Assembly: GCF_900104655.1 (NCBI RefSeq)
Contig: NZ_FNWD01000002.1
Location: 2,588,246-2,652,245 of the forward strand
From: Millionella massiliensis
GTDB lineage: Bacteria > Bacteroidota > Bacteroidia > Bacteroidales > Rikenellaceae
Reading direction: 5' to 3'
Length of the DNA stretch: 64,000 bases
The notes under the pieces were generated by a model, which worked only from the letters and a program-made list of their open reading frames with translations, ran no database searches and had not been told where the DNA came from. Shown in pieces: positions 9,016-22,721 of this stretch (position 1 is its first letter; each line of letters begins with the position of its first letter). A program made the translations under genes and the position numbers.

Positions 9016-11067
9016 TTACTTCACGACTTCGCAGGTGAAACGGTCGGTCAGCGGGGCTTTGGAGTTGCCCGCGGTGACGTGGATTTCGTTGAGACCGTCG
9101 GCCAGTTCGACGTTTTCCCACCGGATCGTGGCGTAGTCGTCGGGTTTGGCCTTGCCGCAGCTTACGCCGTTGATGAAGAGTTCCGCTTCGGGCTGGTTGG
9201 TAAAGACGGTGATCGTCTGCCGGTTCGCGTGGCGCTGATTGTTGCGTTTCTCGGCGATGTAGAGGACGGGCTCCTGTTTGTTCCAGTTCGCTTTGTAGAA
9301 GTAGAAGGCGTCTTTGCGGATCTTGCGGTCGAAGGTGACCAGCCCTTTGTCGTTGATGCCGGGACGGTCGCCCTCGGTACGGTGGGCTGCTCCGAAATCG
9401 AACATGTTCCAGACGAAACTGCCCCATACGAACGGACGCGACGATATGATCTTCCACGACTCGATGTGGTAGTAGGTCTGCCAGTTTTCGGGGTGCCACC
9501 ATCCGGCCGGTGCGGGTTGCCTGAGCGAATCCTGCTGGTGGTAGATGCTGGCTCCGGCGCCGTATTCGCTGATCCCGATCCGCAGCTCGGGGTTCTGTTT
9601 GTGCTGGTTGTCGAGCCAGGTGCCCAGCGTGGCGGGGTTGCTGCCGTACCAGCCGTCGTATCGGTTCCAGGCAATCAGGTCCGTGATGAAGTTCAGCGCA
9701 CCGCCCTGGTTGCTGGCCGAGGTGGTGGGGCGCGTGGGATCTTCCCGGTGAGCCAGCGCGTTCAGCTCCTTGATGTATTCGACCGGATTGTCGCCCGCTT
9801 CCTTCAGCTCGTTGAACAGACCCCAGCAGCAGATGGAGGGGTGGTTATAGTGCTGCCGGATCATCTCGACCAGTTGCATCCGGCCGTTGGCCTTGAAGGT
9901 TTCGGAGTTGACGAACCCTTTGTTGCCGTATCCGCCGGGACCGACGAACGGAATCTCGGCCCAGACGATCAGTCCGTGGCGGTCCATCAGGTCGTAGAAA
10001 TATTCGGCCTGCGGATAGTGGGCCAGACGCACGGCGTTCACGCCCATCTCCAGCATCAGACGCACATCTTCGTCGTGGTGTTCGCGGCGCAGGGCGTTGC
10101 CCACTTCGGCACGGTCCTGATGCCGGCAGACTCCCTTGAGTTGCAGGTGCTTGCCGTTCAGAAAGAATCCCTTGTCGGGGTCGATGCTGTAGAAGCGCAG
10201 CCCGAGGTGTTCGCTAATCGAGTCGAGGGTCTGGCCATCCTTGGTGATGACGGCTTCCACCTGGTACAGGAACGGGTCTTCCACGCCGTTCCACAGGTGG
10301 GGGTTGCGGATCTCGACGGGGAGGGCGTGCGTGAGGGTGCCGCCGGCGGGCAGCGTGACGGTAGCTGTGGCGGTCTTCACGACTTTCTCCTGATCTTTCA
10401 CGCGGATGGTGATGCCGACCTGTTCGTCGCGGTCGCGGCTGCTGGAGAGCTGAATCTCGTTGATGACGCGGGCGTATCGGGCGCTGACGGAGTCCTGGAT
10501 CAGTTTCAGCCCGGGCGAGGCGTAGTCGAGCGGCGAGATGCAGATGTCGTCGGTCACCAGCAGGTGGACGTCGCGGTAGATGCCGCCGTACATGTTGAAG
10601 TCGCCGGTCAGGGGCATGATGTCGAGCTGCTCGGCGTTATTGACCCGTACCAGCAGGGTATTCTCCTTGCCGGGTTTGACCAGATCGGTGATCTCGATGA
10701 CGAAGGCGCCGTAGCCGCCGCGATGTTCGCCGGCGTACAGGCCGTTCACGAAGACACTCGTGACGGTATTCGCCCCGTCGAACCGGAGGAACAGCCGTTT
10801 ACCGGCGAGGTCGGCGCTGACGAAAAGTTTTTTCTCATAGTTTCCGATGGCACGTGTATAGTCCATGCGGCCGACCAGGGCGTCCTGGGCGTTCCACGTG
10901 TGGGGCAGGTCGACGCGGCGTGCCTGGCTTGCGTTCATCTGGTAGGCAAAGTGAAACGACCAGTCGTTGTTCAGGTCGATCGACTGTCTGCGGGCATGCG
11001 CAGTCGTGAATGCCGTCAGTAGCAGTAGAAACGCCACTGATTTCGTGAGTAAAGGTTTTGTACTCAT
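9016..11067 (-). CDS. Secreted glycoside hydrolase family 2 (beta-galactosidase/beta-glycosidase-like)
   Basis: This 683-residue protein has a Sec signal peptide (about residues 1-25, ending TTAHA). The GH2 order follows: a sugar-binding jelly roll (VDLPHTWNAQDA; GGYGAFVIEITDLV; GGIYRDVHLL), an immunoglobulin-like sandwich, and the TIM barrel with KGVCRHQDRAEVG. The acid/base is N419-E420 in GLFNELKEAG and the nucleophile is probably E501 in ISEYGAG. A C-terminal beta domain (AELFINGVSCG) completes it. No lipobox is seen, so it is probably periplasmic. It is divergent from the GH43 gene across a 516-bp region and belongs to the hemicellulose island. Beta-galactosidase is the commonest activity of this architecture, but a different beta-linked sugar cannot be excluded. 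Confidence 0.9.
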   Translation of the reverse strand: MSTKPLLTKSVAFLLLLTAFTTAHARRQSIDLNNDWSFHFAYQMNASQARRVDLPHTWNAQDALVGRMDYTRAIGNYEKKLFVSADLAGKRLFLRFDGANTVTSVFVNGLYAGEHRGGYGAFVIEITDLVKPGKENTLLVRVNNAEQLDIMPLTGDFNMYGGIYRDVHLLVTDDICISPLDYASPGLKLIQDSVSARYARVINEIQLSSSRDRDEQVGITIRVKDQEKVVKTATATVTLPAGGTLTHALPVEIRNPHLWNGVEDPFLYQVEAVITKDGQTLDSISEHLGLRFYSIDPDKGFFLNGKHLQLKGVCRHQDRAEVGNALRREHHDEDVRLMLEMGVNAVRLAHYPQAEYFYDLMDRHGLIVWAEIPFVGPGGYGNKGFVNSETFKANGRMQLVEMIRQHYNHPSICCWGLFNELKEAGDNPVEYIKELNALAHREDPTRPTTSASNQGGALNFITDLIAWNRYDGWYGSNPATLGTWLDNQHKQNPELRIGISEYGAGASIYHQQDSLRQPAPAGWWHPENWQTYYHIESWKIISSRPFVWGSFVWNMFDFGAAHRTEGDRPGINDKGLVTFDRKIRKDAFYFYKANWNKQEPVLYIAEKRNNQRHANRQTITVFTNQPEAELFINGVSCGKAKPDDYATIRWENVELADGLNEIHVTAGNSKAPLTDRFTCEVVK

Positions 11068-11583
11068 AATGCGTAGAAGTTTGTGGGGTGCGAAAGGTTG
11101 GTTATACGCTGTTTTATGAGGTAGGGGGCAGGTGTTGATGTATGGGGCACAAAAACCGATTTACTGGGAATCGGATTGGGAGGTTATTCGTCTACTGTTG
11201 GGTCGGTATGATTTCGTAAAGTAAATGAATTTATGATGTATGCGCAAGCGGTCGGAGAGATGGAGTGCTATCCTGCTTCAAAAAGTGGATGAGGTGATTA
11301 TTGGCTCGATCCAGTATTTTATTTTATAAATGACGAATTTTCAATGGAATAAAATCGTACTCGATGGGACGGCGGTAATTTTGACAATAAGGTGGCGATC
11401 TATGTTTTTCGGATTCAGATCGAAAGACATGAATATGGGTCGTAACGGTTTGACAAGGCTGACAATGAGGCTGATAAGCTATAGCAATGCGCAGTGGACA
11501 TTGGTGCGTGATTTATGCGCGGGAGATGGTTGCTTGAATGTATGATATGTCCTATATTTGAGATGATTAATGGCTTGTCGAAG
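11068..11583. other. Divergent control region between GH2 and GH43
   Basis: This 516-bp AT-richer non-coding region separates divergent carbohydrate genes. It contains the GH43 promoter at 11530-11560 and a possible minus-strand TACTTTAC box near 11215-11222. No operator palindrome or regulator gene was recognised. Confidence 0.5.
11530..11560 (+). promoter_or_regulatory. Predicted promoter of the GH43 gene
   Basis: TTG at 11530-11532 and TATATTTG at 11553-11560 are separated by 20 bp, close to the Bacteroidota consensus. The box lies 23 bp before the ATG at 11584, excluding the longer in-frame start at 11515. Confidence 0.55.
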
Positions 11584-13161
11584 ATGAAAAAACGTTTGTT
11601 TTTGCTGATATGTCTGATTCTGGGGGGCATAAAGTATGGCCACTCTCAGGTCTGGTCTCCCGATCAGGGCGATGGAACTTATTGCAATCCGATTATCCAT
11701 GCCGATTATTCCGATCCGGATGTCATTCGGGTCGGTGATGATTACTATATGGTGGCGTCGAGCTTCACCTGTTTCCCCGGTATTCCGGTGTTGCATTCCA
11801 AAGACCTTGTGAATTGGCGCATCATCAACCATGTGTACTGCGAACTGCCGTTCGATCGGTATAAATATCCGGCGCATGGGCAGGGCTCCTGGGCGCCTGC
11901 GATCCGGTATCATGACGGGTTGTATTATGTCTATTTCTGTACACCCGAAGAGGGTTTGTTTGTGGCCTATACCAAGGATCCCCGGAAAAAGTGGACGCTT
12001 AAGAACGTGTTGAAAGTCTCGCAATGGGAAGATCCATGTCCGTTTTGGGACGACGACGGCAATGCCTACTTGGTACGAAGTAAATTGTGCGGAGGACCGG
12101 TCTATCTTCACAGAATGTCGCCCGACGGATTGGAAATCCTGGATAACGGGAAAATCGTTTATTGGGACGACTCGCAAAATCCGGTGCTCGAAGGGCTGAA
12201 AATGATCAAGCGTAACGGTTGGTATTATATTGTTGCTCCGGCAGGTGGGGTCACATATGGATGGCAGACGGTGTTGCGCTCGAAAAATATTGAGGGACCG
12301 TATGAAACGAAAAAGGTGTTGGATGCGGGTAATGGGATCAATGGACCTCATCAGGGAGGTCTGGTCGAAACACAAACCGGAGAGTGGTGGTTTATCCACT
12401 TTCAGGATAAAGGTATGTATGGACGAGTGGTTCACTTGCAACCGGCTCAATGGGTTGACGATTGGGTCGTGATGGGCGAAGATCCTCAGCAAAGTGGATG
12501 CGGAAAACCGGTGTTGAGGTACCGGAAACCCAATGTGGGTAGAAATTATGCTCCGGATCAGCCTCAGACATCGGATGAGTTTGATGCCAAAACCCTGGGA
12601 TTGCAATGGCAGTGGCAGGCAATCGAACAGCACAAGTGGTATTCGTTGTCGCAGTCAAAAGGGAGTTTACGGCTGTTTGCGGTCTCGGTTCCGTCCGAAG
12701 AGGGTAACTTGTATTATGCCGGAAATTTGTTGCTGCAAAAATTTCCGGCACCCGAATTTACGGCAAAAGCAAAGGTGGATGTTTCGGCCCTTCGACCTGG
12801 CGAACGAGGTGGTCTGATCGTGATGGGTAATTACCATTCGTATATTTGTGTGGTTAATGAGGCGGGAAATAAGGTTGTTGCAGTGTATGAGGGGAAATAT
12901 GAAAATTGTGGGTATCCACCTCGTCAGGAGGCTAAGGTAAATTGTGCTGCGGATCAGTTATGGCTGAAGGTAGAGGTGTTTGACGATGCAACTTGCCGCT
13001 ATGCTTACAGCTGGGACAATGAGCATTACACCGTCTTTGATCATCGATTCAGAATAGAACGCGGTCAATGGATTGGAGCGAAAGTAGGACTCTTCTGTAT
13101 TAATCCCGATATCCGTGATGGGAAAGGTTACATGGATGTGGATTATTTTCACATTGAGTAA
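11584..13161 (+). CDS. Secreted glycoside hydrolase family 43 (beta-xylosidase/arabinofuranosidase type)
   Basis: This 525-residue protein has a signal peptide (about residues 1-22) and a five-bladed GH43 propeller. The probable base is D44 in HADYSDPDVIR, the pKa modulator D150 in QWEDPCPFWDDDG and the acid E203 in PVLEGLKM. From about residue 330 there is a concanavalin-like beta-sandwich of the GH43 C2 / beta-xylosidase C-terminal type. It should remove xylose or arabinose from xylan-type oligosaccharides in the periplasm. Its codon use is visibly more A/T-rich than that of its neighbours, which suggests a separate origin. A strong terminator follows at 13184. Confidence 0.9.
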   Translation: MKKRLFLLICLILGGIKYGHSQVWSPDQGDGTYCNPIIHADYSDPDVIRVGDDYYMVASSFTCFPGIPVLHSKDLVNWRIINHVYCELPFDRYKYPAHGQGSWAPAIRYHDGLYYVYFCTPEEGLFVAYTKDPRKKWTLKNVLKVSQWEDPCPFWDDDGNAYLVRSKLCGGPVYLHRMSPDGLEILDNGKIVYWDDSQNPVLEGLKMIKRNGWYYIVAPAGGVTYGWQTVLRSKNIEGPYETKKVLDAGNGINGPHQGGLVETQTGEWWFIHFQDKGMYGRVVHLQPAQWVDDWVVMGEDPQQSGCGKPVLRYRKPNVGRNYAPDQPQTSDEFDAKTLGLQWQWQAIEQHKWYSLSQSKGSLRLFAVSVPSEEGNLYYAGNLLLQKFPAPEFTAKAKVDVSALRPGERGGLIVMGNYHSYICVVNEAGNKVVAVYEGKYENCGYPPRQEAKVNCAADQLWLKVEVFDDATCRYAYSWDNEHYTVFDHRFRIERGQWIGAKVGLFCINPDIRDGKGYMDVDYFHIE

Positions 13162-13224: not shown

Positions 13225-13946
13225 GTGCGAGTATGAGTGGGACTATGGGGAATCAACGGTGTGTTATGTTGGGCGTGACATGCAGGGTTAAATGTAGGAA
13301 CACGTCCTGTTACCGGAGCAGCCTTTCTTCTGTTTTTCAGGTATTTCTCGGGTGGATGCAGTTGCTAGTATATGGTATGGAGCGATATCGCATGACTAAG
13401 TCTGCGAAAGGGAGTTTGCGCGGTTGGAATTGGGTGAGGGGTAGCGTGACGGGGGGCGGAAAGTGAAGCTCCTTGTGATGGTTTTGAGGAGGGTGAACCT
13501 TGTTATGGCGTGGCGGAGATTGGGAATGCGGTTGGGAGGGTATTCCGGGGCACTGTCGTTGGTTTAATCGCTTTGTGGTAATATGTAATGGTTTAGACAA
13601 TCGATTGCATGAAGGTGACGAATTAACGGATCGATTCAATATGTCTGCTATGTAAAAGATTATGAATAGAATATGGGACCAAAATAAACCGATGCCGAGA
13701 ACTTTTGATAACGTGAGGTTTATTTTTTGATTTGGATAATCGGGGGATAATATCTACTTTTATGCAAACGATTGCGTAATAGGGGTGAGGCGTTGGGACT
13801 GCGAGTGGGAATGTTGCTGTCATTTCGAGTAGTTTGTCGGTGGTAGGGGAACGAAGCGGTGTCGGGGATTTTGAGCATGATGCGGTACGGGATAACTGGA
13901 GTTCAGGATGTGTTGCATCCGGGTAATCATAAAACACACGAACATC
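13225..13946. other. Long non-coding leader region before the GH30 gene
   Basis: About 720 bp without a credible gene. The 13380-13530 part is G-rich on the plus strand and the 13620-13770 part is AT-rich. The only recognisable element is the promoter at 13731-13762, which would leave a leader of roughly 180 nt before GH30. Confidence 0.5.
13731..13762 (+). promoter_or_regulatory. Predicted promoter upstream of GH30
   Basis: TTTG at 13731-13734, a 20-bp gap, then TACTTTTA at 13755-13762, one mismatch from TAnnTTTG. Confidence 0.45.
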
Positions 13947-16010
13947 ATGAAAAGTCAGATTTCAAAATTGCTCTTTGCGGTGGCATGGTGCCTGTTTTTC
14001 GGCGGGATGGCTCGGGGACAGCATGTCGGGACACGGCCGGCGGACTGCCCGGCATACGCGGCAGAACCTGTTTCGACCGATCGAACTGTTTGTGAAACCG
14101 CTTCGGAACCGGCGCAAGTGGTGGCCGAACCCGGGATGGATCGACCGACACCGGGTGGTGCGACGAGGCCGAATGACGCGAAGGAGGTGTCGACGTTGGC
14201 TGAACCGATGACGGTCGATACGATCTGCTACGTAGTCAACCCCGAGGCCGAACGCCAGCGGTTCCGGGGCTGGGGAGTGTCGTTGTGCTGGTGGGCCAAT
14301 ATGTGCGGCCGGTGGAGCGATGAGAAGATCGACGAGATTGTGGATTGGCTGGTGAGTCCCGACGGATTGAACTTCAGCTATTTTCGTTATAATATCGGCG
14401 GCGGGGACGACCCGCTGAACCGTCACTGCACGCCGCATCACATGGGAATGGGACAGGGCAAGGGGCTGCGTGCCGAGATGGAGGGATTCAAGGATTCGAC
14501 CGGCGGTGCCTATGTCTGGGAGCGTGATGCGGCCCAGCGGAAGATTCTGCTCAAGATCCGGGAAAAGCGACCCGACGCCGTGTTCGAAGCCTTCAGCAAT
14601 TCATGCCCCTATTACATGACTTACAGCGGTTGCTGTTCGGGTAACGCCGATCCCGGGAAGGACAATCTGAAACCGGAGTATTACGAAGAGTTCGCGCATT
14701 ATCTGGTGGATGTCTGCAAACACTATAAGGAGGAGTATGGCATCGAGTTCCGCACGCTGGAACCCTTTAACGAGTCGATGACCAGTTACTGGTGGGCCAA
14801 CGGGATTCAGGAGGGGTGCCACTTCGACTACAGCTCGCAGATTGCGTTTCTCAAGGTTCTTGCCCCAATTCTGAAGAAGTCGGGCCTCCGTACGGTGATT
14901 GCCGCTTCGGACGAGTCGAGCGTGGCTCAGGGTGTCGAAGGGTTCGATGCCTATCGCGAGGCCGGAATCCTGGACCTCATCGGGCAGTGGAACGTACACT
15001 CGTACCAGGCCGATCAACCCAGTCGCAGCCGATTGAATGCACGCTGCCGGGAGGCTGGTATGCCGCTCTGTATGAGCGAGGTGGGTTTCGGCGGGACGGG
15101 GTTGGCCGGCAATCTTGCCCTGGCCCGGAAACTGATGGACGACATCCGGTACATGATGCCCGAGTACTGGGCCGACTGGCAGTATGTCGAGGAGCGTACC
15201 GACCAGTGGTGCCTGGTTCGCGGTGACTTCAAGGCGCAGACCTACGAAAAGGTCAAAAACTATGCGGTTCGTCAGCATTTTACCAAATACATCAAGGCCG
15301 GATATACGTTCCTGACCTCGCTCAACGAGCAGACGCTCGTGGCCCGCAACGCGGCGCGTGATACGCTGGTCATCGTAGCGCTCAATACGGATTCGCTGCC
15401 CGTCTGCCACCGTGCCGATCTGTCGCTCTTTCGGGCGAGCGGCGATGGGGTTACCTGTCGGCTGACCACCCGGGAACAGGATTTGGCCGTTTGTTACAAC
15501 CATTCCTTCCGGGACGGGGTGCTGAGCTACACTCTGCCGGCCAACAGCATCGCCACGCTGATCGTGCCGCTGGCCGACCCGGCACAACGCCCTGCGGAAC
15601 CTCTGAAGGCAGGAACCTCCTACGCGATTGTGCCGCGAGGTGCGGCCGGTCTGGCCCTGCAGGCCGACAGCGGAGCGGTACGGGTCGTTGAAAACCGCTA
15701 CCTGCCGGCTCAGCGATGGGTGTTGAAAGGCAAAGCCGGACGGTATGTCCTGCGTAATGAGCAGCGAGAGGTGCTGATTGTTTCAGAGCAGGGCGATGGG
15801 CTGAGCCACTCGAAACAGGCCGTCGGGAAGCAGCGTTTCCGGATCGAGCCGGTCGACGGGATGTTTTATCAGCTTGTCACTCCGGACGGGACGAAGGCGT
15901 TGGAGTTGCAGGAGGGTAACCTCGCCGCCGGAACACGTGTCGGACTCGGTGCATGTGCCGATATGCCGATGGACTACCACCGTCAGTGGCAGCTGGTTCG
16001 CCTGCCGTAG
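13947..16010 (+). CDS. Secreted glycoside hydrolase family 30 with C-terminal ricin-like domain
   Basis: This 687-residue protein has a signal peptide (about residues 1-24) and a roughly 60-residue low-complexity linker. The GH30 barrel begins at about residue 95 (RFRGWGVSLCWWANMCGRW; FRYNIGGGDDPLNRHC). Acid/base E276 sits in EPFNES and nucleophile E378 in CMSEVGFGG. A small beta domain is followed, from about residue 550, by a ricin-type beta-trefoil-like region (ALELQEGN and a final RQWQLV). The barrel resembles the endo-beta-1,6-galactanase-like branch of GH30, though xylan-active relatives exist and the bond cleaved is uncertain. The ATG at 13947 begins the signal peptide. It opens a co-directional run with the three GH120 genes. 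Confidence 0.88.
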   Translation: MKSQISKLLFAVAWCLFFGGMARGQHVGTRPADCPAYAAEPVSTDRTVCETASEPAQVVAEPGMDRPTPGGATRPNDAKEVSTLAEPMTVDTICYVVNPEAERQRFRGWGVSLCWWANMCGRWSDEKIDEIVDWLVSPDGLNFSYFRYNIGGGDDPLNRHCTPHHMGMGQGKGLRAEMEGFKDSTGGAYVWERDAAQRKILLKIREKRPDAVFEAFSNSCPYYMTYSGCCSGNADPGKDNLKPEYYEEFAHYLVDVCKHYKEEYGIEFRTLEPFNESMTSYWWANGIQEGCHFDYSSQIAFLKVLAPILKKSGLRTVIAASDESSVAQGVEGFDAYREAGILDLIGQWNVHSYQADQPSRSRLNARCREAGMPLCMSEVGFGGTGLAGNLALARKLMDDIRYMMPEYWADWQYVEERTDQWCLVRGDFKAQTYEKVKNYAVRQHFTKYIKAGYTFLTSLNEQTLVARNAARDTLVIVALNTDSLPVCHRADLSLFRASGDGVTCRLTTREQDLAVCYNHSFRDGVLSYTLPANSIATLIVPLADPAQRPAEPLKAGTSYAIVPRGAAGLALQADSGAVRVVENRYLPAQRWVLKGKAGRYVLRNEQREVLIVSEQGDGLSHSKQAVGKQRFRIEPVDGMFYQLVTPDGTKALELQEGNLAAGTRVGLGACADMPMDYHRQWQLVRLP

Positions 16011-16193: not shown

Positions 16194-18077
16194 ATGAAAC
16201 GAATTGTTTGTCTGATTTCCGCACTTTGTATGTGCGGAGTGTCGGTGTCGGCACGGGAGTACCACGTCTCTCCCACCGGCAGCGATGCCCATGACGGCAG
16301 TGCAGCTGCCCCGCTGCAAACCATCAACGCTGCGGCTCAGCGCGCTTTGGCGGGCGATACGGTCACGGTGCACGAGGGGACTTACCGCGAATGGGTGAAT
16401 CCCCTGAACGGCGGCGAAAGTGACTCCAGGCGAATCCTCTACCGCGTAGCCGATGGCGAAACGGTCCACCTGAAGGGTTCGGAACTGATCAAGAGTTGGG
16501 TAAGGGAGAAGAAGGCCCCGGGCGTGTGGAAAGTGGTGCTGCCGAACAGCTTTTTCGGAGCCTACAACCCCTATAACGATCCGATTGTGGGCGACTGGTT
16601 TACGCCCTGGGGCAAACCCCACACGGGGAATGTTTTCCTGAATGACGTTTCGATGTACGAAACGCGCAGCGTCGAGAAGGTGCTGGCTCCCGACACGGTC
16701 CGCAGCACGCGCGATCCGCAGGGAACGACGCGGGTATGGCACGCGGTGGTGGATGCCGACAATACCACGATTTATGCCAACTTCGGTGACGTGGATCCCA
16801 ATCGCGAGACGGTCGAGATCGCTGTCCGTCCGACCTGTTTCTATCCGACCCGTCAGGGGTTGAATTACATCACCCTGCGCGGGTTTCACGTCAGCCAGGC
16901 GGCAACCCAGTGGGCGGCCCCGACGGCCGAACAGGTGGGGATGATCGGTACGCACTGGAGCAAAGGGTGGATCATCGAGAACAATGTGGTGCGCAACTCG
17001 CGCTGCAGCGGCATCACGTTGGGCAAGGAGCGTCCCACGGGCCACAACCTCCTGTGCAACGACACGCGACTGGACGGGATGGCCCACTATCTGGAGGTCA
17101 TCTTCCGGGCGCTGCGTGCCGGTTGGAACAAGGAGCAGGTCGGTTCGCACATCGTCCGGAACAACGTGATCTCCGATTGCGGACAGACCGGTATCTGTGG
17201 CAGTCTGGGAGGTGCGTTCAGCGAGATATACGGCAATCATATCTACAACATCTGGGTCACAGGGCAGTTTGCCGGGGCCGAAATGGGCGGAATCAAGCTC
17301 CACGGTGCAATCGATACCTATATCCATCATAACCGCATTCACCGCGTCGGCCACATCGGGATCTGGCTCGACTGGATGAGCCAGGGGGCACGCGTCTCGT
17401 CCAACCTGCTGTACAATAACGGTACGTCGGATCTCTTTTTCGAGGTGGACCACGGGCCCTTCATGGTGGACAACAACATCATGTTGTCGGCCTGTTCCGT
17501 GAACGAGGTCTCCGACGGCGGGGCCTATCTGTACAATCTGTTTGGCGGTACGGTCACCGGGCGCGACGATGCACGTTATATCCCGTACCACTTGAACCAC
17601 TCTACGGAGGTCAAGGGGGTCCGGTCGTTTCTGATCGGCGACCACCGTTTCTATAACAATGTGTTTGTGGGGCGCAAGGGGCAGGAAAAGTGCGGTTTGG
17701 CGCTTTACGATACGGCCCAGCTGCCCATTTATGCCGCCGGGAATCTCTTTTGCAACGGAGCCCGGCCGATGAAGGGTCGCGAGCAGGGCGTCGTGGCGGC
17801 CGATTACAATCCGCAAATCCGGCTGGAGGAGACTTCAGATGGGGTTTACATGACCTTTACGGTCGACGGTGCCGCGACGGCTGGCCTGCAGACCCGTCCG
17901 GTCGATGCCGCACGGCTGGGTACCGTCCAGTTGTCGGGGTACGGGTATGAAAATCCCGACGGAACACCGCTTGACGTACAGGTCGATTTCTTCGGCAAGG
18001 CTCGTTCTGTGGAGACTCCGACTCCGGGGCCGGTCGAAGGGGTGTCGTCCGGCAGTCAGCGGCTGAAGGTCTGGTAA
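16194..18077 (+). CDS. GH120 beta-xylosidase-like protein, first of three tandem copies
   Basis: This 627-residue protein has a signal peptide (cleavage near SVSA-REYHV, residue 20) and a right-handed parallel beta-helix. It follows the characterised GH120 beta-xylosidase XylC of Thermoanaerobacterium, as I recall that sequence, along its whole length: YHVSPTGSD, DTVTVHEGTYREWV, NSFFGAYNPYNDP, TTIYANFGDVDPN, WSKGWIIENN. The XylC nucleophile Asp (in WLDW) corresponds to D393 and the acid/base Glu (in EVxHGP) to E417; both are present. It should release xylose from xylo-oligosaccharides in the periplasm. It shares long near-identical stretches and its 3' flank with the third copy. Activity on a different pentoside or fucoside is possible. 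Confidence 0.87.
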   Translation: MKRIVCLISALCMCGVSVSAREYHVSPTGSDAHDGSAAAPLQTINAAAQRALAGDTVTVHEGTYREWVNPLNGGESDSRRILYRVADGETVHLKGSELIKSWVREKKAPGVWKVVLPNSFFGAYNPYNDPIVGDWFTPWGKPHTGNVFLNDVSMYETRSVEKVLAPDTVRSTRDPQGTTRVWHAVVDADNTTIYANFGDVDPNRETVEIAVRPTCFYPTRQGLNYITLRGFHVSQAATQWAAPTAEQVGMIGTHWSKGWIIENNVVRNSRCSGITLGKERPTGHNLLCNDTRLDGMAHYLEVIFRALRAGWNKEQVGSHIVRNNVISDCGQTGICGSLGGAFSEIYGNHIYNIWVTGQFAGAEMGGIKLHGAIDTYIHHNRIHRVGHIGIWLDWMSQGARVSSNLLYNNGTSDLFFEVDHGPFMVDNNIMLSACSVNEVSDGGAYLYNLFGGTVTGRDDARYIPYHLNHSTEVKGVRSFLIGDHRFYNNVFVGRKGQEKCGLALYDTAQLPIYAAGNLFCNGARPMKGREQGVVAADYNPQIRLEETSDGVYMTFTVDGAATAGLQTRPVDAARLGTVQLSGYGYENPDGTPLDVQVDFFGKARSVETPTPGPVEGVSSGSQRLKVW

Positions 18078-18426: not shown

Positions 18427-20697
18427 ATGAACCGTTTTTTTTGTCTGCTCTCCGCATTGTGTATGTGCGGAGTGTCGGTGTCAGCGCGGGAGTACCACGT
18501 CTCGCTCACCGGCAGTAATGCCAACGACGGCAGCATCGCCGCACCTCTGAAAACCATTAACGAAGCGGCCCGGCGTGCCATGCCGGGTGATACGGTCACG
18601 GTGCACGAAGGAACCTATCGGGAGTGCATCGTTCCATCTCGGGGGGGTACCTCCGATCGGATGCGTATCACGTACCGTGCCGCTCCCGGCGAGCGTGTCG
18701 TAGTGAGCGGTTCTGAGCCCGTTTCCGGTTGGGTGAAAGTGCAGCACGATACCTGGAGAGTGACTTTACCGAACACGTTTTTCGGTACTTTCAATCCGTT
18801 TGACGAGTTGATCTATGGAAGCTGGTACAACAGTGACGGGCGGCCGAACCACACCGGCGAGGTGCTGCTGAATGGACAGCGGTTGCGCGAGATCTTTTCG
18901 CGCGATCAGATTCTGCGTCCGATCGACGGGCAGCCCCGCTGGTATGCCGAAGCTGACGGTAACGGCGGGCCTGTGTTGATGAACATCGAGTGGATCCGCC
19001 CCGCCACGGGAGAAAAAATGACCTCCATGCAGGCTTCCGTCGAAGGCGGTGACCAGGCAATCTGCATTGCAGTGGCCGACCGCTGGCCGTTCGGATATCT
19101 GAAAGACGGGTCGGTGCTCCATTTCGACGGGGTTGATTTCGGCGCCGGAACCGACACGCTGTTTTTTCAGGCCGCTACGTTGGCCAAAGGCGGAATCGTG
19201 GAGGCGCGGTTGAACGATCCGTCCGGTGAGTTGCTCGGGCTGAGCATGGTGACGAACACCGGCGGGTGGGAAGCGTTTGCCGTGTTCCCGATCAAGATGA
19301 ACCGGAAACTGGCCGGTACAAACGACATCTGCTTTGTGTTGAGGGCTCCGGCCGTGAAACAGAATGGCCAAACGACAATCTGGGCGCAATTCCCCAATGG
19401 CATCGACCCGAACAAAGAGGAGGTCGAAATCACGGTGCGTCCGCAGGTCTTTTATCCGGATCGGGCAGGCGTCAACTATATCACGATCAGCGGTTTCATT
19501 CTGGAAAACGCAGCCACGAACTGGGCACCGCCTTCGGCCGAACAACCCGGACTGGTGGGGACCCGTTGGTCGAAAGGGTGGATCATCGAAAACAACACGA
19601 TCCGCAATTCGCGTTGTTCGGGTATTTCGCTCGGTCGTCCGACCTTTGGCCATGCCCACCACTATCAGAAACTCCCTCCGAAGATCTATCCCGAACCGGG
19701 CGGCGGACAGACCCTGCAACAGTTGATCGACTATTTCGATCGTGCGTCCTGGAACAAAGAGGATGTCGGATTCCACATTGTGCGCAATAACCATATCTAC
19801 GAGTGCGGACAGGCCGGTATTGTCGGATGCAGCGGCGGGGCGTTCAGCCTGATCGAGGGTAACGAGATTCACGACATCTGTATGAACGAGAGCTTTACCG
19901 GAGCCGAAATGGCCGGTATCAAGCTGCATTTTGCCTGTGATGCGATTTTGCGGAACAACCACATCTATCGATCGATCCGCGGTTTGTGGCTGGACTGGGG
20001 CGCGCAGGGGGTACAGGTGATCGGTAACCTTTTCCACGACAACGACCAGTGTGAAGACCTCTTTGTCGAGGTGTGCCACGGCCCGACTCTCGTAGCCAAC
20101 AACATTATGCTCTCCCGCAAGGCCATGACCTTGTCATCACAGGGGATAGCCGCGGTACATAACCTGGTTTGCGGCGGCATATCGGGAAATCCCGACATCC
20201 GTGAGACCTTCTTCTATGAACCGCACGGGACGATCTCGGCGGGCAAGACGGTCAATCGGGGCGGGGATTTCAGGTGGTACAACAACCTGCTGCTCGAACG
20301 GGCCTCGCTCGGCGACTGGAGTAACCACGAACTGCCGATCGTGTATGGCGCCAATGTGTTTGCAGCAGGTGCACACGCGGCTGTGGACGACCATACGGCT
20401 TTTGCCGACTCCCTGTCGGACCCGGCCGTGAAGCTGGTGCAGAAGTCGGACGGTTGGTATCTGTCGATGAATGTGCCGGCTGCGTGGAAAGGGAAAATAA
20501 AATGCAAAACAGTCACAACGTCGACCCTGGGTAAAGCGGTCGTTCCGGATCAGGAGTTTACGAATCCGGATGGTAGCCGATTGCGGGTCGACCGGGACTA
20601 TCTGGACCGGAAACGGAGCGGGAATCCCAGCCCCGGGGCGTTTGAGATCGGAACCTTCGGGCCGCAGGAGTGGCGTGTATGGCCCAAACAGGAGTAG
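18427..20697 (+). CDS. GH120 beta-xylosidase-like protein with inserted CBM6-like domain, second copy
   Basis: This 756-residue protein has nearly the same signal peptide as copy 1 and a GH120 beta-helix with D523 (WLDW) and E548 (EVCHGP) as nucleophile and acid/base. Between residues about 178 and 315 it carries some 138 extra residues absent from copies 1 and 3. The insert falls where the family runs directly from WYAEVD to TTIYANF. It reads like a CBM6 beta-sandwich (LHFDGVDFGAGTDTLFFQA; GIVEARLNDPSGELLGLSMV; NTGGWEAF). The remaining catalytic part is the most divergent of the trio and has its own C-terminus (EWRVWPKQE). It is probably periplasmic. Xylan or a substituted oligosaccharide is the expected target. 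Confidence 0.87.
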   Translation: MNRFFCLLSALCMCGVSVSAREYHVSLTGSNANDGSIAAPLKTINEAARRAMPGDTVTVHEGTYRECIVPSRGGTSDRMRITYRAAPGERVVVSGSEPVSGWVKVQHDTWRVTLPNTFFGTFNPFDELIYGSWYNSDGRPNHTGEVLLNGQRLREIFSRDQILRPIDGQPRWYAEADGNGGPVLMNIEWIRPATGEKMTSMQASVEGGDQAICIAVADRWPFGYLKDGSVLHFDGVDFGAGTDTLFFQAATLAKGGIVEARLNDPSGELLGLSMVTNTGGWEAFAVFPIKMNRKLAGTNDICFVLRAPAVKQNGQTTIWAQFPNGIDPNKEEVEITVRPQVFYPDRAGVNYITISGFILENAATNWAPPSAEQPGLVGTRWSKGWIIENNTIRNSRCSGISLGRPTFGHAHHYQKLPPKIYPEPGGGQTLQQLIDYFDRASWNKEDVGFHIVRNNHIYECGQAGIVGCSGGAFSLIEGNEIHDICMNESFTGAEMAGIKLHFACDAILRNNHIYRSIRGLWLDWGAQGVQVIGNLFHDNDQCEDLFVEVCHGPTLVANNIMLSRKAMTLSSQGIAAVHNLVCGGISGNPDIRETFFYEPHGTISAGKTVNRGGDFRWYNNLLLERASLGDWSNHELPIVYGANVFAAGAHAAVDDHTAFADSLSDPAVKLVQKSDGWYLSMNVPAAWKGKIKCKTVTTSTLGKAVVPDQEFTNPDGSRLRVDRDYLDRKRSGNPSPGAFEIGTFGPQEWRVWPKQE

Positions 20698-20831: not shown

Positions 20832-22721
20832 ATGAAAAAGTTTTTTTGTCTGCTTGCAGCCTCGTGCCTCTGTACTACGGCGCTGTATGCCAAGGAGTAT
20901 CATGTAGCTCCGGGAGGGAGTAATGCGAATGATGGCAGTATCTCCGCACCCCTGAAAACCATTAACGAAGCGGCTCAGCGTGCCCTGCCCGGCGATACGG
21001 TCACGGTGCACGAAGGGACCTACCGCGAATGGGTCAACCCGCTGAACGGCGGTGAAAGTGACTCTAAACGAATCCTCTACCGCGTGGCCGATGGCGAAAC
21101 GGCCCATCTGAAAGGGTCGGAGCTGATCAAAAACTGGGTCAAAGAGAAGAAGGCCCGGGGAGTGTGGAAAGTGGTGCTGCCAAACACCTTCTTCGGAGCA
21201 TACAATCCGTACAATGACCGCATCTTCGGCGACTGGTTTGCCAACTACGGTCATGTGCACCATACGGGTGACGTCTATCTGAACGACGTGTCACTCTATG
21301 AGACCGACAGCCTGGGTAAGGTGATGACACCCGATACGATTCGCACCCTGCGCGATCCCGAGGGTACCACGCGGGTATGGCACGCGGTGGTGGATGCCGA
21401 CAATACCACGATCTATGCTAACTTCGGTGACGTAGATCCCAATCGCGAGACGGTCGAAATTGCCGTCCGTCCAACCTGCTTCTATCCGACCCGTCAGGGG
21501 CTCGACTACATCACCATCCGAGGATTCCATGTCAGTCAGGCGGCAACCCAGTGGGCTGCTCCGACGGCCGAACAGGTGGGGATGATCGGTACGCACTGGT
21601 GCAAAGGGTGGATTATCGAAAACAATGTGATTCGCAACTCCCGTTGTAATGGGATTACGCTGGGCAAGGAGCGGAGCAGCGGACACAATCTGGAGTGCAA
21701 CGACCGCCGTCTGGACGGTACGGCTCACTACATTGAGGTTATTTTCAATGTATTGAGAGCCGGATGGTGTAAAGACGAAGTCGGTTCGCACATCGTCCGG
21801 AACAACGTGATCTCAGACTGTGAGCAGACCGGTATTTGCGGCAGCATGGGTGCCGCCTTCAGCGAAATCTACGGAAACCATATCTACAATATCCTGGTCA
21901 AACAGCAGTTTGGCGGGGCCGAGATGGCCGGTATCAAACTCCACGGTGCGATCGACACCTACATTCATAACAACCGTATCCACAAGACCGGGAATTTCGG
22001 AATATGGCTCGATTGGATGGCCCAGGGGGCGCGTGTCTCTTCCAATCTGCTGTACGACAACCTGGCCCAGGACCTCTTCCTGGAGGTGGACCACGGGCCG
22101 TATGTGGTGGACAACAACATTATGCTCTCGCCTCACTCCGTGTATGAAAGTTCCGATGGCGGGGCCTATCTGTACAACCTCTTTGCCGGGGACTTTAACG
22201 GGCAGGACGACATGCGTTATACGCCCTATCACCTGAACCATTCGACCGAGGTGAAAGGGATCCGTACCATCACGCACGGTGACCACCGCTTTTATAACAA
22301 TATTTTTGTTGGACGGGCCAATGCGAAGGGGAATTTCGGGCTGGTTGTCTTTGAGTCGGCGCAATATCCCATCTATGCTGCCGGTAATTTGTTCTGTGGA
22401 GGCGCCCGGCCGATGAAGGAGCGCGACCAAGGCGTTGTGGCGGCCGATTACGATCCGCAGGTCACGCTGGAGGAGACGCCCGGTGAAGTGTATCTGAAAT
22501 TTACGGTCGACCCGGCCGCCGTGGCTGGCCTTCAGACCCGTCCGGTCGATGCGTCTCTGCTGGGCATCACCAAATTGGCGGGTTACGCATATGAGAATCC
22601 CGACGGAACGCCGCTTGAAGTTCCGGTCGATTTCTTCGGTAAGGCTCGTTCTGCAGACACTCCGACTCCGGGGCCGGTTGAAGGGCTGTCGTCCGGCAGT
22701 CAGCGGCTGAAGGTCTGGTAA
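20832..22721 (+). CDS. GH120 beta-xylosidase-like protein, third copy
   Basis: This 629-residue protein has a different signal peptide (MKKFFCLLAASCLCTTALYA). Its mature sequence is closest to copy 1, sharing IEVIF, GSHIVRNNVISDC and an identical C-terminal SSGSQRLKVW. Catalytic D394 (WLDW) and E418 (EVDHGP) are present. Residues 30-55 match copy 2 better than copy 1, so the gene is mosaic. The role is the same as for copy 1: exo-acting xylosidase on oligosaccharides in the periplasm. It lies 134 bp after copy 2 without an obvious terminator in between. Confidence 0.87.
   Translation: MKKFFCLLAASCLCTTALYAKEYHVAPGGSNANDGSISAPLKTINEAAQRALPGDTVTVHEGTYREWVNPLNGGESDSKRILYRVADGETAHLKGSELIKNWVKEKKARGVWKVVLPNTFFGAYNPYNDRIFGDWFANYGHVHHTGDVYLNDVSLYETDSLGKVMTPDTIRTLRDPEGTTRVWHAVVDADNTTIYANFGDVDPNRETVEIAVRPTCFYPTRQGLDYITIRGFHVSQAATQWAAPTAEQVGMIGTHWCKGWIIENNVIRNSRCNGITLGKERSSGHNLECNDRRLDGTAHYIEVIFNVLRAGWCKDEVGSHIVRNNVISDCEQTGICGSMGAAFSEIYGNHIYNILVKQQFGGAEMAGIKLHGAIDTYIHNNRIHKTGNFGIWLDWMAQGARVSSNLLYDNLAQDLFLEVDHGPYVVDNNIMLSPHSVYESSDGGAYLYNLFAGDFNGQDDMRYTPYHLNHSTEVKGIRTITHGDHRFYNNIFVGRANAKGNFGLVVFESAQYPIYAAGNLFCGGARPMKERDQGVVAADYDPQVTLEETPGEVYLKFTVDPAAVAGLQTRPVDASLLGITKLAGYAYENPDGTPLEVPVDFFGKARSADTPTPGPVEGLSSGSQRLKVW

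Follow-up and report, generated by a model that had tools for sequence, protein, structure and literature searches.

A GH120 protein of Millionella massiliensis with a CBM6, very probably circularly permuted, nested in its Ig-like domain

CBMs are mostly found as appended modules, in beads-on-a-string fashion. The locus described here raises the question of what a CBM is doing inside an enzyme: which domain holds it, whether it is an ordinary member of its family, and what it could contribute to the reaction. In the window, the whole 64,000-nt stretch of M. massiliensis DNA that we analyzed, three GH120 genes follow one another (P0003, P0001 and P0004), and a fourth copy (L003) lies elsewhere in the genome. 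The middle gene, P0001, carries an internal CBM6. The locus comprises the following features.

11515..13161, + strand: GH43 enzyme with a GH43_C2 domain (beta-xylosidase type), upstream of P0001 (Pfam)
13908..16010, + strand: GH30 enzyme with a C-terminal ricin-B-like lectin domain, upstream of P0001 (Pfam)
16194..18077, + strand: P0003, GH120 paralogue without the insert
18427..20697, + strand: P0001, GH120 protein with internal CBM6, 756 aa (XylC match, Pfam)
18427..18489, + strand: likely signal peptide, P0001 residues 1-21 (read directly from the sequence)
19993..19995, + strand: D523 of P0001, aligned with Asp382 of XylC 3vst (phmmer alignment)
20068..20070, + strand: E548 of P0001, aligned with Glu405 of XylC 3vst (phmmer alignment)
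20832..22721, + strand: P0004, GH120 paralogue without the insert

P0001 is encoded by one unbroken open frame and, judging from its sequence, is likely an exported beta-xylosidase. Its nearest solved structure was XylC 3vst (phmmer, E 2.2e-136), and the AlphaFold model of P0001 matched this structure over 582 aligned residues (VIA-align, Z 44.8, rmsd 2.2), the sequence and fold matches together identifying the beta-helix core of P0001 as homologous to that of XylC. D523 and E548 correspond to the residues that we take to be the nucleophile (Asp382) and the acid/base (Glu405) in XylC numbering. At A493 of P0001 (19903-19905), the site of His-352 in XylC and Trp-362 in BaXylB, an alanine was found that is shared with P0003 and P0004 and may change the pocket. 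GH120 catalysis has been described to involve an Asp nucleophile and a Glu acid/base (PMC6887791). XylC (Thermoanaerobacterium saccharolyticum, GH120, PDB 3VST/3VSU) resembles P0001 in its beta-helix, its Ig-like insertion domain and its catalytic Asp and Glu, but its Ig-like domain contains no CBM6.

The extent of the insert and its host domain were delimited by alignment and Pfam searches.

18721..18927, + strand: N-terminal half of the Ig-like GH120 insertion domain PF21258, residues 99-167 (Pfam, profile positions 1-69 of 121)
18940..18957, + strand: WYAEAD strand, residues 172-177, GH120's own, immediately upstream of the insert (alignments)
18958..19371, + strand: insert proper, residues 178-315, a CBM6 that is very probably circularly permuted (Pfam, PDB match, HMM and profile tests)
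19372..19392, + strand: TTIWAQF, residues 316-322, resumption of the Ig-like domain (alignments)

Alignment of P0001 to P0003 and P0004 revealed a single large extra block between WYAEAD and TTIWAQF, two points that both paralogues connect as RVWHAVVDADNTTIYANF, and the phmmer alignment to XylC 3vst was interrupted at P0001 residues 165/314. Residues 178-315 have no counterpart in P0003, P0004, L003 or XylC, which bears out the initial annotation in assigning the extra block to P0001 only. Of the interval 18955-19371 given there, the end stands and the start moves to 18958, as 18955 belongs to the D of WYAEAD and the insert proper is therefore residues 178-315. The annotation was also right that the module is internal, but it named the catalytic fold as the host, and the host is instead the Ig-like domain: PF21258 was detected in P0001 (Pfam, E 8.5e-22) but was split by the CBM6, its best match being cut to positions 1-69 of 121, whereas the match was complete in P0003 and P0004. 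Since the Ig-like domain of XylC itself interrupts the beta-helix and helps organize the active site (PMC6887791), the Pfam split indicates a nested arrangement, with the CBM6 inside the Ig-like domain and the latter inside the helix. The beta-helix as the direct host was ruled out by the position of the block within PF21258. Separately, two Treponema GH120s (L012 and L013) contain another, short insert in the same loop, between their W-x-C-x-x-E and TVFYCNF strands, suggesting that this site is generally tolerant of insertions.

When run alone, the insert matched Pfam CBM_6 with E 1.1e-11 (45.5 bits, cut-off 28.9) and the solved xylanase CBM6 1uy1 with E 4.3e-9 in a PDB search, confirming the similarity to CBM6 proposed initially. 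The layout is not a one-off: it was found in 13 further genes, making 14 with P0001, in two phyla. Conservation at the ligand site was compared across these 14 inserts.

18973..19002, + strand: VLMNIEWIRP, residues 183-192, corresponding to the strand that closes an ordinary CBM6 but opens this one; includes N186 (last-strand profile, HHalign)
18982..18984, + strand: N186, counterpart of the Asn conserved in the last CBM6 strand (retained by 12 of the 14 inserts)
19093..19347, + strand: CBM6 body, residues 223-307, Pfam positions 26-110 of 125 (Pfam)
19096..19098, + strand: Y224, aligned to Tyr34 of CtCBM6, 1gmm (9 of the 14 inserts have Tyr or Trp here)
19267..19269, + strand: W281, aligned to Trp92 of CtCBM6 (all 14 inserts have Trp here)

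Y224, W281 and N186 match Tyr34, Trp92 and the last-strand Asn of CBM6, which belong to a known ligand site of the family. The aromatic residue at 224 was replaced in five of the inserts, and the insert of L151 was among those without the last-strand Asn. Between P0001 and its relative L060, identity amounted to 73% in the insert and 70% in the core, indicating that constraint on the insert is as strong as on the enzyme.

The order of strands in the insert differed from that of the family. Ordinary CBM6 domains end in the Asn-bearing strand (DLMNVNWF in 1w9s, LFNLNWF in 2v4v), whereas in the insert this strand comes first. The insert is thus very probably a circularly permuted CBM6 with the last strand moved to the front, a relative of the family and not a standard member, so that the CBM6 assignment in the initial annotation holds for the family but not for an ordinary form of the domain. 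The Pfam CBM_6 match ended at position 110-113 of 125 in every full insert scanned; for comparison, 32 of 35 other CBM6 matches above the Pfam cut-off in related genomes reached positions 119-125. A permuted order would explain why domain searches show only a truncated CBM6 in P0001. With a local CBM6 HMM built from 33 ordinary domains and 4 seed rows, moving the front block of P0001 to the end increased the score from 46.9 to 56.6 bits, a value equaled by none of 200 block shuffles, and extended the coverage of the HMM from position 113 to position 125 of 128. The same rearrangement increased the score of L060 from 44.6 to 54.6 bits, again with none of 200 shuffles as good. Across the 14 inserts, which are related to one another and do not amount to 14 independent proofs, at most 2 of 100 shuffles matched the observed score in 12, and the test was failed by L086 (11 of 100) and L173 (7 of 100).

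Profile searches pointed the same way. The VLMNIEWIRP block ranked first among 751 positions of P0001 against a CBM6 last-strand profile, and HHalign placed the front block alone at columns 126-135 of 139 of the CBM6 profile, which correspond to the last strand (E 0.0037). In profile-profile comparison of the whole insert, de-permutation lowered the E value from 2.5e-24 to 1.9e-25 and extended the alignment through the last strand. With the stock Pfam model, de-permutation added only 1 bit (45.8 versus 44.8 for shuffles), and this model alone was dropped as a permutation test, being too insensitive over the long join. AlphaFold modeled the insert with pLDDT of only ~31-45, which we attribute to the use of alignments without close relatives of the insert; as this part of the model is unusable, the strand order and the placement of the module rest on sequence comparison. 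To arrive at the permuted form, the chain would have been opened in the loop ahead of the conserved last-strand Asn, and the natural ends linked by the short loop ATGEKM, leaving the last strand (LMNIEWI) in first place.

Literature searches, mostly of open-access papers, returned neither a GH120 with a CBM6 nor a permuted CBM6, in agreement with the expectation that no such GH120 had been described. The CBM6s of xylanases and related enzymes (1gmm, 1uy1, 1w9s, 3c7e) share with the insert the family, the aligned Tyr and Trp and the last-strand Asn motif, but their LMNxxWF-type strand comes last, whereas in P0001 it comes first and the module lies inside another domain. The only other CBM6 found in the same genome belongs to a GH43 enzyme (L094), where, in contrast to P0001, it is C-terminal, unpermuted and ends in DLMNLEWFTF. 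CBMs within the catalytic domains of Bacteroidota sugar-degrading enzymes are known from the GH10|CBM4 xylanase Pm25 / Xyn10C and from SusG|CBM58, where they are described as threaded into the catalytic domain and largely independent of catalysis (PMC7848910). These systems differ from P0001 in the enzyme and CBM families and in the host, a TIM barrel or B domain instead of an Ig-like subdomain, and circular permutation is not mentioned in this description of them (PMC7848910). Inserted CBMs also occur in phage Dit proteins (PMC9692632).

The genomic setting was informative about the substrate. The closest relative of P0001, from another genome (G456), is 69% identical over the full length, insert included, and belongs to an operon with XylE, xylose isomerase, a xylulokinase-type kinase and an NrtR/AraR-type regulator, in the order xylE-xylA-[GH120]-xylB-like, making beta-xylosidase activity likely. 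This operon and the GH43 and GH30 enzymes upstream of P0001 together point to xylo-oligosaccharides. Our main reading, to which we assign a probability of about 0.62, takes P0001 for a GH120 exo-beta-xylosidase in which the Ig-like accessory domain received a circularly permuted CBM6. The CBM6 identity, the nesting, the strand order, the retention of three residues matching the ligand site and the recurrence in 14 genes are read from sequence. In this reading, the module would bind xylan or long xylo-oligosaccharides and retain them on the enzyme.

How closely the module is coupled to catalysis is a separate matter. Both connections to the host are predicted to exit the module beside the ligand site, which should place this site close to the Ig-like domain. 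Both domains of XylC shape the active site (PMC6887791), and its Ig-like domain helps form the pocket, so that a module close by may retain whatever portion of the chain extends past subsite +1. In known beta-xylosidases, the sugars past +1 are in solvent (PMC6887791); a binding site adjoining the pocket could make use of them. It is conceivable, though we consider it doubtful, that the permutation was a route for grafting a CBM6 with its ligand site facing the catalytic pocket, giving an exo-xylosidase extra plus-subsites that are built in rather than tethered. A permuted CBM, nested in an accessory domain and recurring in two phyla, resembles a natural device for setting how a binding site is oriented toward the catalytic pocket. 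GH120s with and without the insert occur side by side in one genome, which makes a clean test possible of whether orientation, beyond tethering, alters the range of substrates digested by an exo-enzyme.

The strongest competitor of such coupling shares its view of what the insert is: the permuted CBM6 could be a functional but independent tether for xylan or another sugar, with no coupling to the active site, as is the case for the CBM4 pair of GH10 Pm25 or CBM58 of SusG. We give this alternative somewhat less than an even chance; the retained ligand residues are what a tether would need, but the predicted exit of both connections beside these residues argues for a binding site near the host. 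A purely neutral or stabilizing expansion at a site tolerant of extra sequence is in our view unlikely. The site is variable, as the different short insert of the two Treponema proteins illustrates, and the CBM6 was gained or lost in the ~8 changes counted on the GH120 tree (see below), but the conservation of the ligand residues and of the overall sequence speaks against this reading.

It is still less probable that the insert is an ordinary CBM6 minus its last strand, in which VLMNIEWIRP resembles that strand by chance and the whole serves as a degenerate spacer without ligand binding. The end of the Pfam match at 110 of 125 and the nearly unchanged Pfam score on de-permutation would be expected from such a spacer, yet the block exceeded the shuffles in 12 of 14 inserts, the Asn was retained in equally many, and the insert is as conserved as the core. 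An assembly or frame artefact can practically be discarded in view of the single open frame of 756 aa and of the homologues, including the 69% identical full-length gene with the insert in another genome.

Insert-bearing genes were found in three Bacteroidota genomes and in nine genomes from the phylum to which a Kiritimatiellota MAG belongs. Among ~1,500 Bacteroidota genomes searched, GH120 was present in ~38 and the insert in three (G000, G456 and G669); among 185 genomes of the other phylum, GH120 was present in 21 and insert-bearing genes in nine. In a GH120 tree computed without the insert region, P0001 and L060 clustered with sequences of the Kiritimatiellota-MAG phylum (SH-aLRT 98), apart from P0003 and P0004, and the presence or absence of the insert required ~8 changes. 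Transfer from that phylum combined with repeated loss of the insert is a plausible history. The GH120 strand flanking the insert was found before it in four relatives (WYAEAD) and after it in eight (LWFAxVD). The insertion site may have shifted past a single strand; alternatively, duplication of that strand may have been followed by its loss from one flank. Viral contigs contained no relatives of the insert or of GH120, only two ordinary CBM6 copies, which were misaligned when added to the full alignment; GH120 relatives were present in plasmid records.

Three further GH120s of other genomes deserve mention. L005 (Kiritimatiellota, match 10001-11872) lacks the insert within the insert-bearing clade and contains an alanine-rich stretch, LSAAAAAAVARRP, near the insertion site, possibly a scar of insert loss. 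The insert-bearing GH120 at L181:4957-7731 (G1639) carries in addition a malectin-like domain (residues 618-713) elsewhere in the helix region, and with this second place the GH120 core takes binding-type modules at two sites. Finally, direct reading of the insert-less GH120 at L142:1486-4344 (G1513) revealed an in-frame N-terminal sulfatase-like stretch.
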